From assembly GCF_025950095.1 (NCBI RefSeq), contig NZ_JAPDDR010000013.1:1-64000 (forward strand): a stretch of DNA of 64,000 nucleotides, read 5' to 3'. How positions within the stretch are numbered: position 1 is the stretch's first letter; every line of letters begins with the position of its first letter. A program made the position numbers and the translations under genes. Origin of the DNA: Luteolibacter rhizosphaerae. Lineage in GTDB: Bacteria > Verrucomicrobiota > Verrucomicrobiia > Verrucomicrobiales > Akkermansiaceae. This document shows, one piece after another, positions 46,852-54,343 of the stretch. The notes beneath the pieces were generated by a model that did no database searches, was not told where the DNA came from, and worked only from the letters and a program-made list of their open reading frames with translations.

Positions 46852-47423
46852 CGGGGCTCGATATCGATATCGGCCGTGGCGGCCGGACCTCGATCGGTGG
46901 AAGCGGTTTCCGGCAGCTCGAAGGTATCCGGGATGGCGGCCACGCCATCGAGGACGATCACCTCGGCATCCGCGGAGCTGGACGCAAAGTATTCGGCATT
47001 CACACCCTTCTCCGGGGTATAGAGCACCGGCGGTGCTTCGACCGTCACCGGAGCGGGGGCGGAAGGAACCAATCGGGTGCCAGCCCAGAAGCAGAGCGCC
47101 ATGCCGGCTACCGCGGTAGCTGGTAGCAGCCAGCGGAAGAAATTGCGTTCGCGGGCAGGGGCGGGAGCGGCAGGGGCTGCTGCAGCCGCCTCGCGGGCGA
47201 TTTCCCGGGAGATCCGGGAATTGAAGAAATCGGCATAGGGCGGCTCCTCGGCCGACGGCATGTTGGCACGGCGGAAGAGGGCCTTCAACTGGCGCGCGTC
47301 CTCCCGGCGGGCCAACCACTCGGGCTGGGTCGCGGCCCACGCTTCGACCCCGGCGGCCGACGCGCTATCGAGCTCGTCTTCCACCCAGAGGGCCAGCAGT
47401 TCTTCATCGGGCATCGTATTCAT
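46848..47423 (-). CDS. Probable anti-sigma factor (membrane protein)
   Basis: 191 residues. The cytoplasmic N-terminus ('MPDEELLALWVEDELDSASA', 'WLARREDARQLKALFRRA') has the helical look of a zinc-less anti-sigma domain. One membrane segment (FFRWLLPATAVAGMALCFW) precedes a short Pro/Ala-rich periplasmic tail. It overlaps the sigma gene by 20 bases and the next gene by four, so all are translated together. It is expected to bind the ECF sigma factor; this is inferred from position and topology. Confidence 0.75.
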   Translation of the reverse strand: MNTMPDEELLALWVEDELDSASAAGVEAWAATQPEWLARREDARQLKALFRRANMPSAEEPPYADFFNSRISREIAREAAAAAPAAPAPARERNFFRWLLPATAVAGMALCFWAGTRLVPSAPAPVTVEAPPVLYTPEKGVNAEYFASSSADAEVIVLDGVAAIPDTFELPETASTDRGPAATADIDIEPR

Positions 47424-48078
47424 CCTGCAGGAGGGATTGGAGTTTCTGACGGGCGTAGAAAAGACGGCTCATCACCGTGCCGATCGAGCAGCTCATCACG
47501 TCGGCGATCTCCTTATACGCCAAACCTTGGACGTCTTTCAAGATCACGGCTTCGCGGTGTTCAGGGGAGAGTTTGGAGAGGGCGGATTCGATTTTCGCGC
47601 GGAGTTCGTCTCCGGCCAGGGCTTCGTCCGGGCTGCGGGACTCGGCCGGGGTGGCCACCGCGGCGGGGTCGATCCGGTCGCGGTTCAAAAGCTCGTCGTT
47701 GATTTCGTCGCCACCCTCGGGGCGGCGGCGGCGGGTGAAGTCGTAGACGCAGTTGTGGGCGATCCGGTAGAGCCAGGTGGTAAAACGGGCCTTGGCCTCG
47801 AAACGAGGCAGGGCCTGCCACGCCTTGATGAAGGCCTCTTGCGAGAGGTCCCAGGCGTCGGTGTCGTTTTTGACCATGTTGCGGATCATAGCGTAGATTC
47901 TTCCCCGGTGACGGGTGACCAGTTCGTCGTAGGCTTTCAGGTCGCCCGCTTTTGCGCGGAGGACCAGTGCCTCGTCGTCCGGGCCGGCTTCGGGCTCCTC
48001 CGGCATCCCGGAAGCCGCCCCGCCGGACCCTGCTGGGCCCATCACGGGATTCGACGCGAGGCGCTGGAAAATATTCAT
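47404..48078 (-). CDS. ECF sigma factor (SigE/RpoE-like)
   Basis: 224 residues from ATG 48078; the frame extends upstream but the earlier residues do not look like this family. Region 2 is 'AYDELVTRHRGRIYAMIRNM', 'DAWDLSQEAFIKAWQALPRF', 'FTTWLYRIAHNCVYDFTRRR'. Region 4 is 'LSPEHREAVILKDVQGLAYK' then EIADVMSCSIGTVMSRL. It is the first gene of a six-gene leftward operon. Autoregulation is common in such operons but no promoter was identified. The 377 bases upstream contain copy A of the repeat described separately. Confidence 0.93.
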   Translation of the reverse strand: MNIFQRLASNPVMGPAGSGGAASGMPEEPEAGPDDEALVLRAKAGDLKAYDELVTRHRGRIYAMIRNMVKNDTDAWDLSQEAFIKAWQALPRFEAKARFTTWLYRIAHNCVYDFTRRRRPEGGDEINDELLNRDRIDPAAVATPAESRSPDEALAGDELRAKIESALSKLSPEHREAVILKDVQGLAYKEIADVMSCSIGTVMSRLFYARQKLQSLLQDEYDAR

Positions 48079-48263
48079 CGTACTCGGAAAACCTTGCGCG
48101 CGGGGACGGAGGAAGAATCGCCGCCGGTAAAGGAAACCGGGCGGATGCGCCGGAAGATGAGCACCTGTTTGAATGCTGGCAACTTCATTCAAGCCTGCCC
48201 ACCCCGTTGCGGGGGGCTGAAATCTTTCGTTTCCGCCCCGAAATGGAACTTTCGGCTACCTCC

Positions 48264-48447
48264 ACGATTGCGTACTTGGAGCCGGGGCAAAATCGGCCAT
48301 GATGACCCCCGTAAGCCTGACCGGTCCCCCCGCCGAAACGGTTTGGAATTCCCCCCGAACAGACCCGCCCATCCCCCCGAAGGCGGACGACCCAAAAGGG
48401 AAAACCCGCTGCCTTCGTTCCCCCAACGGCGATAGCGGGTTTTTCTT
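48264..48447 (+). repeat. C-rich intergenic repeat, copy A (candidate small RNA or terminator element)
   Basis: The 5' block has AAAATCGGCCATGAT and CCCCCGTAAGC, matching copies B and C after purL. The middle has several CCCCCCGA-type tracts. The 3' end is a plus-strand terminator. It fills the gap between the leftward sigma operon (start 48078) and the leftward gene ending at 48456. No plus-strand gene lies upstream, so a terminator here points to an independent plus-strand transcript or to a mobile element. The remaining part of this gap, 48079-48263, shows no clear element. Confidence 0.6.
48403..48447 (+). terminator. Terminator hairpin of repeat copy A
   Basis: AACCCGCT (48403-48410) pairs with AGCGGGTT (48434-48441) and is followed by TTTTCTT. 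An inner stem CGTT/AACG (48416-48419 with 48425-48428) presents a CCCCC loop. On the other strand the hairpin is followed by only four Ts, so it may act weakly in that direction too. Confidence 0.75.
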
Positions 48448-48455
48448 GTACCGGG

Positions 48456-48906: not shown

Positions 48907-49629
48907 TCAATTTTGATAGCCCCTGAAAAACCAAGCCTGCCCGTCGGAATCTCTCACTGCGAAGGTGATCCAAGTCTTGGTGCTCGTTTTGGTGCTGTCG
49001 CTTTTCTTGATGAAGCATTTCACTCCTTGAGCACCGGGTGGTTCGGCGAGCAAGGCCGAACCGGATGAGGAAAAAACCGGGTCGCGCGCGATCCTTTCCT
49101 TCAGGGAGAATGGCTTGGTTTCCTCAAGCTCCCAACGGGTCCGGATCCTTTCTGCGCCTTGCTGGTCGATCTTGAAGGTGACGAGCCAGCGGGTCGCGAG
49201 AAAGGAATTGAAGCCGCTGGCTTTGATTTCCGAAGCCCCGTCGTTGTCGCCGTTCCCGACCAGCTTGAGGTAGCGTTGCCGGGGAGTTGCCGAGTAGAGA
49301 CCTGCGCCTGCAAGCGCGAGCGAGATTGCCGAGGCGACACCTAGAATGGTTTTGGATCCAAGCCAAAGGGGCCAGCGCCCGCGACGGGAGAGGGATGTAA
49401 CGATCGCTCTGAGGATCAGGACCGGGAAAATCGCTGCTGGTACAAGGCAGGCCGAGAGGATCAGCGGCCACCAGAGGCCAATTTTCAGGAGGTCTCCGGT
49501 CGTCATCGAAGTGACGGTGTGAACAGCCAAGCCCGGGTAAATGAGCAGGGCGCCAAGGACGAACGCGTTCGGTGGGGAGGGCTTCAAAATGAAAAGGTTG
49601 CGGCGGCCGGACGGTTTCCGTCGGGACAT
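48907..49629 (-). CDS. Membrane protein with C-terminal extracytoplasmic domain (unrecognised)
   Basis: 240 residues. About three or four hydrophobic segments fill the N-terminal half (e.g. FVLGALLIYPGLAVHTV, LWWPLILSACLVPAAIFPVL, ILGVASAISLALAGAGLYS). The C-terminal ~120 residues are soluble ('YLKLVGNGDNDGASEIKASG', 'WLVTFKIDQQGAERIRTRWE', 'TWITFAVRDSDGQAWFFRGY'). I do not recognise the family. It is divergent from purL and forms an operon with the small membrane protein that follows. Confidence 0.65.
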   Translation of the reverse strand: MSRRKPSGRRNLFILKPSPPNAFVLGALLIYPGLAVHTVTSMTTGDLLKIGLWWPLILSACLVPAAIFPVLILRAIVTSLSRRGRWPLWLGSKTILGVASAISLALAGAGLYSATPRQRYLKLVGNGDNDGASEIKASGFNSFLATRWLVTFKIDQQGAERIRTRWELEETKPFSLKERIARDPVFSSSGSALLAEPPGAQGVKCFIKKSDSTKTSTKTWITFAVRDSDGQAWFFRGYQN

Positions 49630-52700: not shown

Positions 52701-53421
52701 AGGAGAGTCGGAGATCCAAGTCTTCCGCAATCTAACAGCCCGCCACATCGAAGAGTCGTTGGAAGCCTTCGCCGCTCAGATCCGCAAGTCGCAGATCCTG
52801 ATGTTCCCAGGTGGTTTCAGCGCGGGCGACGAGCCGGACGGCTCGGCCAAGTTCATTGCCACGGTGATCCGCAATCCGCGCGTGGCGGATGCGATCATGG
52901 ATCTGATCAAGAACCGCGACGGCCTGGTGCTGGGTGTCTGCAATGGCTTCCAAGCGCTGATCAAGACGGGCTTGGTGCCCTACGGCGAAATCCGCGATCC
53001 GCAGGCGGAGGCGCCCACGCTCACCTTCAACGACATCGGCCGCCACGTCTCCTGTTACGTCACTACCCGCATTGCCAGCACGCTTTCGCCGTGGCTTGCA
53101 GGAATGGAAACGGGCGAGCTGCACAGCGTTCCGGTCTCGCACGGCGAAGGCAAGTTCCTCGCCAGCCCGGGCGTGATCGCCGAGTTGGCGGCAAAGGGCC
53201 AGATCGCCACACAGTATGTGGATACCGAGGGTGTTTACTCGATGGAGATCGACACCAATCCGAACGGCTCGCTTTTTGCGATCGAAGGCATTACCAGCCC
53301 CTGCGGCCGGGTCTTCGGCAAGATGGCTCACACGGAGCGGAGCGGCAGCTTGGTCGGCAAGAACATCCCGGGCGAGAAGCGCCAGCCGATCTTCGCGGCC
53401 GGCGTGAAGTGGTTCGCATGA
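49711..53421 (+). CDS. purL: Phosphoribosylformylglycinamidine synthase, single-chain form
   Basis: 1236 residues. It makes FGAM from FGAR, glutamine and ATP in purine synthesis. 'DTYWSDHCRHTTF', 'FKNETHNHPTEIEPFGGAAT' and 'GGKDSMSGSF' mark the synthase domains. The C-terminal glutaminase part has 'LIPAFPGTNSEYD', 'FPGGFSAGDEPDGSA' and 'GVCNGFQALIKTG' with the catalytic Cys near 1075. The length and motifs fit the clade II single-chain type rather than separate PurL/PurQ/PurS. No other pur gene is in the window. The start lacks a clear Shine-Dalgarno. Confidence 0.95.
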   Translation: MNRIFVEKKPEFNAEARHLLHDLKESLGLEGLKGVRVIQRYDVDGLSGEEFSQAVGLILSEPQVDITSADLALAGDENAFAVEYLPGQFDQRADSAAQCVQILTGKERPLVSSAKVMVLKGGLSADEVAKVKGYVINAVDSHEARMDLPETLQPKIGVPADVAVLAGFTGKPAADLAALRKELGLAMSDADLVFCQNYFRDEEKRDPSITEIRMLDTYWSDHCRHTTFLTKIDEVNFEPGAEPVKAAWESYLATRQKLGREDKPVTLMDIALIGMRELKASGELDNLEVSEEVNAASIVVPVSISGRPEEEWLVMFKNETHNHPTEIEPFGGAATCLGGCIRDPLSGRSYVYQAMRVTGAGNPLTPFAETLPGKLPQKKICQIAAHGYSSYGNQIGLATGQVSEVYHPGYVAKRMEIGAVVAAAPRSQVFRGTPAAGDVILLTGGRTGRDGVGGATGSSKEHTDTALENSAEVQKGDAPTERKIQRLFRNPELTKKIKICNDFGAGGVSVAIGEIAPSLEIDLDAVPKKYEGLDGTELAISESQERMAVCIDPADAAYFIAECDKENLECVKVADVTDTGRLRMKWRGKVIVDLSRAFLDTNGVQQLAKVSVGAPQDLFQSAIVNPQSATALLSELNYCSQKGLGERFDSSVGAGTVLWPFGGKHQLTPPDAMVAKLPLLEGDTDVCTYMSWGFNPQISSWSPFHGAVYAVTESVCKVVAAGGRLSDIRLTLQEYFPKLGGDAARWGLPFAALLGAYHAQHGLRLAAIGGKDSMSGSFNDLDVPPTLVSFALAPGLASRALSPEFKQAGNTLSLVEVSRDDNNLPDYERLKEVAEQLHQLNAEGKLVSVKALGAGGLMHGVATSAFGNGIGAKISSDLNAYAERYFGFLIEHTAELPEALGAEKIGETIAASRLEFPAESHNLAELQAAWLGTLEPIYPTKEDTKVAETPHLTLAASFANTMHRGAATKHSKPKVLIPAFPGTNSEYDSAKAFNEAGGESEIQVFRNLTARHIEESLEAFAAQIRKSQILMFPGGFSAGDEPDGSAKFIATVIRNPRVADAIMDLIKNRDGLVLGVCNGFQALIKTGLVPYGEIRDPQAEAPTLTFNDIGRHVSCYVTTRIASTLSPWLAGMETGELHSVPVSHGEGKFLASPGVIAELAAKGQIATQYVDTEGVYSMEIDTNPNGSLFAIEGITSPCGRVFGKMAHTERSGSLVGKNIPGEKRQPIFAAGVKWFA

Positions 53422-53433
53422 TGCGTAGGGAGA

Positions 53434-53620
53434 CATACGTGAAAACCCTGCGCGCGATTGCGTGATAGCAAGTGTCCCAAAAACGGACATGCTCTCCCAC
53501 GTAAGCGACGCCGATCCCCCCGCCTGCCCGCCTGCTGTTCAAGACAACACACACTAACACACCCCCCGAAAAGGAACACCCGCTGACCGCGTCCCCCACG
53601 CTGCTAGCGGGTTTTTCTTT
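53434..53620 (+). repeat. C-rich intergenic repeat, copy B (candidate small RNA or terminator element)
   Basis: It starts 12 bases after the purL stop. The first ~90 bases match copy C at all but about 12 positions, including the identical run GCGTGATAGCAAGTGTCCC. The middle has CCCCCC tracts and the end is a plus-strand terminator. It could serve as the purL terminator, but the conserved 5' block is not needed for that. 53422-53857, a 436-base gap without a gene, consists almost entirely of copies B and C. Confidence 0.7.
53578..53620 (+). terminator. Terminator hairpin of repeat copy B (downstream of purL)
   Basis: ACCCGCT (53578-53584) pairs with AGCGGGT (53606-53612), followed by TTTTCTTT. 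An inner stem GCGT/ACGC (53589-53592 with 53598-53601) presents a CCCCC loop. This inner stem differs in sequence from copy A but still pairs. Confidence 0.85.
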
Positions 53621-53642
53621 GGCCGTTTTCCACGGCTGTTAG

Positions 53643-53843
53643 GACGTACGTGGAATCCCTGTGCGCGACTGCGTGATAGCAAGTGTCCCAAAATCGGCCA
53701 TGATCTCCCGCGTGAGCGACGCCAATCCCCCGTAGGTCCGCTTGCAGCCCCCCGAAAAACGAGATCCCCCCGATCCCCAGAGCACACACCCCCAAAGAAT
53801 TACCCGCTGGAGCGCTTCTCACGCCGCAGCGGGTTTTTCTTTT
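53643..53843 (+). repeat. C-rich intergenic repeat, copy C (candidate small RNA or terminator element)
   Basis: Tandem with copy B, 22 bases after its end. It contains GCGTGATAGCAAGTGTCCC and AAAATCGGCCATGAT, the latter shared exactly with copy A. Two CCCCCCGA tracts and a CCCCC precede the terminator. Since copy B already ends the purL transcript, a second complete unit suggests its own transcription or a duplication of a mobile unit. Confidence 0.7.
53802..53842 (+). terminator. Terminator hairpin of repeat copy C
   Basis: ACCCGCTG (53802-53809) pairs with CAGCGGGT (53827-53834), followed by TTTTCTTTT. The inner stem is shorter (GCG/CGC) with a seven-base loop lacking the CCCCC of copies A and B. 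It points toward the convergent FKBP gene. Confidence 0.85.
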
Positions 53844-53857
53844 CCGGAGATCGAAGC

Positions 53858-54343
53858 TTAGCGGATGCCGAGCAGCTCCACCTCGAAGACGAGCGGGCTG
53901 TTCGGCGGGATGTCGGGGCTCGGGCTGTTCGCGCCGTAGGCCAGTTCCGCCGGGATGGTGAACTTGAACTTGTCACCCACCTTCATCAGTTGCACGCCTT
54001 CGGTCCAACCTTTGATCACCTGGTTCAGCGGGAAGCTGGCCGGGGTGCCGCGCTGCACGGAGCTGTCGAAGACCTTCCCGTTCAGCAGGGTGCCGTGGTA
54101 GTGCACGGTCACGGTATCGGTGGCTTTCGGGTGGACGGTGCCGGTGCCGCTCTTGAGGACCTTGTATTTCAGGCCGCTGGCCGTGGTCTTCTCTTCGTCC
54201 GTGGGAGCGGCTGCCGGAGCGGCGGCATCGGCCGGGGCGTCCGCTTTGGGGGCAGCGGGTTCCGTGGTCGTGGGAGCCGGCTTGTTGCAAGCGGCAAGCG
54301 AAAGGGCGGCGAGGGCCGCAAAGAAAAGAGTGGTGGATTTCAT
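53858..54343 (-). CDS. FKBP-type peptidyl-prolyl isomerase, lipoprotein
   Basis: 161 residues from ATG 54343. The signal peptide MKSTTLFFAALAALSLAAC ends in a lipobox (LAAC), so it is a lipoprotein. A Pro/Ala-rich linker precedes the FKBP domain: 'KYKVLKSGTGTVHPKATDTV', 'YHGTLLNGKVFDSS', 'VIKGWTEGVQLMKVGDKFKF' and 'IPAELAYG'. It catalyses proline isomerisation of proteins in the envelope. The open frame extends much further upstream but lacks a signal and family match there. The next gene upstream (54415) is on the same strand. Confidence 0.92.
   Translation of the reverse strand: MKSTTLFFAALAALSLAACNKPAPTTTEPAAPKADAPADAAAPAAAPTDEEKTTASGLKYKVLKSGTGTVHPKATDTVTVHYHGTLLNGKVFDSSVQRGTPASFPLNQVIKGWTEGVQLMKVGDKFKFTIPAELAYGANSPSPDIPPNSPLVFEVELLGIR

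Follow-up and report, generated by a model that had tools for sequence, protein, structure and literature searches.

Two tandem units downstream of purL

In the 64,000-nucleotide stretch of Luteolibacter rhizosphaerae DNA analyzed here (the window), purL (+) ends at 53421 and is followed by an intergenic stretch carrying two similar units, each closed by a terminator. Do these units serve purL, or are they genes in their own right? Sequence comparison strongly supports that units 1 and 2 are members of a previously undescribed multicopy small RNA gene family, here termed class A.

A sequence-only reading of the window had described the units as sharing a block of about 90 bases, and this is borne out by alignment: 53432-53520 and 53643-53731 are 88% identical over 89 nt with 11 differences (E about 1e-26, spacing 211), and the stretch that it gave as invariant, GCGTGATAGCAAGTGTCCC, is identical between the units. 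Also present, as described there, are the C-tracts in the middle of each unit (C5-C6, 3' of the shared block) and a plus-strand terminator in each. A GC-rich hairpin followed by AGCGGGTTTTTCTTT closes both units, and their terminator ends share 78% identity over 65 nt. The downstream neighbor, an FKBP-type isomerase gene (PF00254; 53858-54343, -), is convergent, so that the units do not lead into a same-strand gene, and within the window no same-strand gene was found downstream of them. Whole units fold better than their shuffles (z -2.8 and -3.6), as does the predicted RNA part of unit 2 (z -3.9). The features of the locus are as follows.

53452-53621, +: unit 1, class A copy, terminator-ended, covariance model match
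53452..53463, +: palindromic operator-like site of unit 1, GCGCGATTGCGT then GAT, at a fixed distance from GTNAG; clade-specific pattern
53488..53493, +: -10-like element of unit 1, CATGCT, putative promoter role; CANNNT 6-8 nt before GTNAG
53501..53620, +: predicted small RNA 1, about 120 nt, GTAAGC to T-run; covariance model E 5.9e-25 and fold; start predicted
53501-53535, +: 5' hairpin of predicted small RNA 1, from the fold
53579..53620, +: intrinsic terminator of unit 1 with C5 in the loop, from the sequence and from helix pairing across copies
53663-53843, +: unit 2, class A copy, terminator-ended, covariance model match
53663..53674, +: palindromic operator-like site of unit 2, GCGCGACTGCGT, at a fixed distance from GTNAG
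53699..53704, +: -10-like element of unit 2, CATGAT, putative promoter role; from the pattern search
53712..53842, +: predicted small RNA 2, about 131 nt, GTGAGC to T-run; covariance model E 2.4e-23; start predicted
53712-53745, +: 5' hairpin of predicted small RNA 2, from the fold
53803..53842, +: intrinsic terminator of unit 2, from the sequence

Class A is a multicopy family of one clade

Querying this genome and 17 others of the genus with the region by BLAST revealed further copies, both tandem and dispersed. We extracted and aligned 29 units from the genus and built a covariance model (R1), which detected class A in 15 of the 18 genomes and six copies in this one, three inside the window and three outside. 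The third copy in the window lies beyond the coordinates considered in the earlier reading; it is flanked by a divergent ECF sigma gene (47404-48078, -) and by a gene at 48907-49629 (-).

48262-48449, +: third class A copy in the window, covariance model E 8.5e-26
48311-48445, +: predicted RNA of this copy, from the covariance model
C3:333039, -: class A copy, model R1
C4:115360, +: class A copy, model R1
C4:97534, -: class A copy, model R1

A second model that included the sister genus (R2) matched 26 of 289 genomes of the order, representing only 3 of 50 genera, the third of them by one weak match. Rfam searches left the units without a match, the sole gathering-level hit being a tRNA in a flank, and cmscan, run on 53400-53870 with all 4227 families and a limit of E 10, returned only mir-1203 and P10. 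Our search of the open-access literature for Luteolibacter small RNAs yielded no earlier description.

It was conceivable that the units are doubled terminators or a 3' untranslated element of purL, given their position directly after this gene and the two terminators in a row. However, other class A copies adjoin unrelated genes, every copy comes with a conserved promoter-like block, and none of the purL loci of eight relatives carries a copy, which led us to reject a conserved position after purL; we regard a purL element as extremely improbable. That class A is a mobile or repetitive, MITE-like DNA element that has spread without acting as RNA and whose terminator is incidental is also very unlikely, if marginally less so. 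Dispersed, multiple, and partly tandem copies would be expected of such an element, and in one relative six units lie within 1.6 kb (G002:C3:65036-66594), a cluster that arose partly from a recent block duplication of about 816 bp. On the other hand, no inverted pairs were reported within 53100-54200, and the copies of one genome, although mostly strongly diverged, have kept promoter spacing, base pairs, and exact C6 tracts. Three matches of the core pattern in viral contigs were unrelated chance matches, which speaks against a mobile element and led us to reject a phage origin. The tandem small RNAs suspected in the earlier reading are instead strongly supported: the covariance-model search of related genomes that it had proposed as a check returned additional copies whose structure is conserved and which each carry a promoter-like block and a terminator, so that the refuting outcome it had named, a lack of such copies or structure, did not occur.

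A promoter-like block with a palindrome at fixed spacing

The conserved block has a constant order: first a palindrome, [AC]CGYNATNRCGT, extended by RAT, then the -10-like CANNNT, and then GTNAG. From the start of the palindrome to GTNAG, the distance is 48-50 nt in every one of the 52 aligned copies, drawn from two genera, and 49 nt in 43 of them, these copies having been chosen by a regular expression that itself requires CANNN[TG] and the spacing range and that 4 of 56 units did not fit. Matches to the pattern CGNNATNRCGTRAT...CANNNT...GTNAG occur in 14 of the 18 genomes of the genus and, in a sample of the family, almost exclusively in this genus and its sister genus; the reversed control gave 0 matches. 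If GTNAG is taken as +1, the first base of the RNA coincides with the first base of the 5' hairpin, and the palindrome is centered at about -43. We infer from this comparison that most of the conserved block is a promoter and that each copy possesses its own. The conservation of the 5' block claimed in the earlier reading therefore stands, but not its role as an RNA leader throughout, as about 50 nt of it would be promoter. GCGTGATAGCAAGTGTCCC, proposed there as a hybridization probe, falls inside this putative promoter, so that a probe to it would miss the RNA; GCGACGCCGATCCCCCC is an example of a stretch within the predicted RNA part. An ECF-type -35 element ahead of CGTRAT, sought by eye, was inconsistent between copies and was dropped.

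Conserved helices and exposed C-tracts

The 52 predicted class A RNAs are 105-199 nt long (median 132), contain 42% C and 22% G, and share an architecture of a 5' hairpin, unpaired C-tracts, and an intrinsic terminator with compensatory changes. An alignment made without fitting to the structure has 90.1% of its cells paired and shows two-sided changes in 9 pairs, versus 2.2 after shuffling. A larger, structure-fitted alignment showed two-sided changes in 20 pairs and 120 cells versus 10.8 and 19.2 in shuffles, these counts being biased toward the structure by the fitting and including two antisense terminator matches. Most of the covariation signal comes from the terminator helices, which are 98.9-99.6% paired across copies with two-sided changes. 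RNAalifold of the full alignment recovered chiefly the terminator, as the length of the middle differs between copies. The 5' hairpin shows a clear double change between the genera (GTAAGC/GCTTGC to GTCAGC/GCTGAC); aligned alone, its covariation is modest, with 5 of 500 shuffles attaining its score, and this counts against the explanation favored below.

C-runs of at least five number 227 in the 52 RNAs; 157 are exactly six long, 191 are preceded by U, and in most the next base is G or A. Each RNA carries a median of five C-tracts and up to eight. On average, the tracts are unpaired with a probability of 0.90, versus 0.37 for other C's and 0.71 when the tracts are left intact and the rest is shuffled. 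U-C6-purine thus looks like a defined element kept open in loops and linkers. Within 624 kb of this genome, ten intergenic clusters of at least three C5+ tracts were listed, five of which are class A or class B (see below). C-tracts were also seen just before the start codon in the leader of an ECF-type sigma gene on contig C1 (76328-76921, -).

Other RNAs and genes under the same palindrome

Class A shares its promoter block with two or more other RNA types, among them class B and class D. Class B is an RNA of about 85 nt with C-tracts and a very conserved hairpin, CGGACACTGGAACGGTTCCCCCCTCTAGTGTCCG; its model (R3) matched 2 of 43 genera, and it also occurs in genomes of the genus without, or nearly without, class A. 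Class D is a single conserved RNA-like locus in which the palindrome occurs with hairpins bearing C6 loops and with a GU-rich linker that hardly varies.

G000:C1:24939-25019, -: class B copy
C1:379296-379387, +: class B copy
C27:17297-17389, -: class B copy
L213, L236, L244: class B RNA
C8 near 230.8-231.2 kb, -: class D locus
L385 about 545-800, -; L379-L383: class D

The class D linker contains 20 nt with perfect complementarity to the central part of unit 1 (GACAACACACACTAACACAC). Among the class A copies a long match is confined to unit 1, and a general complementarity between class A linkers and class D was rejected.

Some mRNA leaders, too, carry the palindrome together with same-sense C-tracts.

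C3:154436: prepilin-like gene (PF07963)
C4:468495: sugar-transferase-like gene by its reading, with a CoA_binding_3 match below the cutoff
Sister genus: gene for a protein with a PEP-CTERM-like end

The palindrome lies upstream of 5 of 30 PEP-CTERM genes; in the comparison set, genes preceded by a gap of 100 nt or more, it was counted at 8 of 524 (binomial p about 9e-5). The test was post hoc, run after one case had been seen; one of the five (L354) has a misplaced start, and with 4 of 30 the p value is about 1e-3. PEP-CTERM loci with a palindrome like ACGTGATCACGT upstream are L350, L354, L363, L366, L375, L376, and G000:C3:324456-325250; L354 and L366 have perfect palindromes elsewhere upstream, and some of the palindromes upstream of PEP-CTERM genes are longer, extended to CCTACGTGATCACGTAGG. 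A near-palindrome also lies 30 nt upstream of a gene for a NarL/FixJ-type response regulator (PF00072 + PF00196; G000:C3:43107-43799, L331:3107-3799, -), whose product might, conjecturally, regulate the RNA family. We found no literature uniting PEP-CTERM, Verrucomicrobia, promoter, and regulator.

Possible pairing with G-rich mRNAs or titration of a C-tract-binding protein

With a putative promoter of their own and exact C6 runs in open loops, class A RNAs probably regulate other genes. The explanation we favor, which we consider about as likely to hold as to fail, is that the locus comprises two tandem, independently transcribed genes of a clade-specific multicopy RNA family, coactivated via the palindrome, whose C6 loops pair with G-rich mRNAs. 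A transcription factor bound to the palindrome, near a class II activator position, would switch on all copies together, and other C-tract RNAs as well as some surface and exopolysaccharide genes may be coactivated through the same site. Least certain are the subsequent steps, in which exposed C6 loops would pair with G-rich stretches of target mRNAs without Hfq, as in 6C/B11, and copy number and repeated loops would increase dosage and sensitivity, as proposed for LhrC.

Binding of the C-tracts to Shine-Dalgarno sites, raised in the earlier reading, received no support. We examined 758 intergenic leaders from C1, C2, C3, and the window, taking the start codons from a simple coding score, the errors of which dilute enrichment tests. 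AGGAG was found 3 times versus 8.0 expected at -25..-8, and GGAGG was likewise not enriched. Shine-Dalgarno pairing as a general mechanism is therefore unlikely, and translation initiation in this genome seems largely Shine-Dalgarno independent, allowing for errors in start prediction. G6 was not enriched in these leaders either (6 observed versus 7.7 expected at -30..-1), so that pairing would need specific G-rich sites and no target class was found. All six G6 cases lie within the proximal 30 nt, the distal 30 nt having none, and single candidate genes with a G6 leader exist; signal-peptide enrichment among the genes with G6 leaders was not significant. Hfq was absent from all 18 genomes of the genus.

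Alternatively, class A RNAs might be decoys in the manner of CsrB/RsmX, their U-C6-purine loops titrating a protein that recognizes C-tracts (a KH-domain protein, Rho, or another) and otherwise acts on mRNA leaders with the same tracts. We judge this possible but somewhat unlikely. Display of U-C6-purine on the unrelated scaffolds of classes A, B, and D, the number of tracts per RNA and of copies, and the tight constraint on tract length and flanks would suit a decoy, and the mRNA leaders with the palindrome and same-sense C-tracts fit it at least as well as pairing. Same-sense C6 is, however, not enriched in leaders generally (13 observed versus 23.5 expected at -30..-1 of the 758). We place C6-G6 pairing first and the C-tract decoy second, while noting that the data separate the two poorly. 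It is tempting to speculate further that U-C6-purine, an element of 8 nt, on unrelated scaffolds and in some mRNA leaders under one palindromic operator, underlies a clade-specific RNA network, a poly-C counterpart of Csr/Rsm with a putative C-tract-binding partner, a proposal that we regard as rather doubtful.

Like class A RNAs, 6C/B11 RNAs end in an intrinsic terminator. CsrB/RsmX-type decoys are under one controlling regulator, as class A may be. They also resemble class A in having many identical short loop motifs and several copies, but their motif is GGA, whereas the motif repeated in class A is U-C6-purine and not GGA, and a protein partner of class A is putative. The actinobacterial 6C/B11 is a small structured RNA with runs of about six C's in hairpin loops, as is class A, and acts without a chaperone such as Hfq (PMC10470900), a protein absent from the 18 genomes of the genus. 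Pairing of the B11 C-loops with a G6 tract in a 5' untranslated region has been proven by compensatory mutation (PMC10470900). Class A differs from 6C in its median of five C-tracts per RNA, placed in loops and linkers, in its many tandem and dispersed copies, and in its phylum, and no covariance match links class A to Rfam 6C. The Listeria RNAs LhrC1-5 are 111-114 nt long and nearly identical; four of the five share one locus, all depend on one two-component system, and they carry three redundant C-rich motifs in loops and linker. The authors remarked on their likeness to Csr/Rsm decoys (PMC4132741). Class A similarly has several homologous copies per genome, some in tandem, and its shared palindrome at fixed spacing may have a parallel in the single-regulator control of LhrC. 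LhrC, however, targets Shine-Dalgarno sites through UCCC motifs and binds Hfq (PMC4132741), whereas class A has C6, in a genome in which Hfq is absent and no Shine-Dalgarno signal is seen. By this comparison, the closest proven mechanism is that of B11/6C and the closest genetic layout that of LhrC.

Implications

Class A is new to Rfam. It belongs to the known kind of multicopy small RNAs with C-rich loops but is set apart by fixed C6 elements, more tracts per RNA, a shared palindromic, operator-like site, and a host with neither Hfq nor a Shine-Dalgarno signal. Its natural copies are numerous, its promoter grammar is defined, and its C6 element has a fixed length; genomes that lack both Hfq and a Shine-Dalgarno signal allow a clean test of how C-loop RNAs can act without either. 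Through the shared operator the regulator could be approached, and a link to exosortase-sorted surface proteins is possible. If the poly-C network were real, it would control surface or biofilm traits, under an operator that also marks some exosortase (PEP-CTERM) and exopolysaccharide-type genes.
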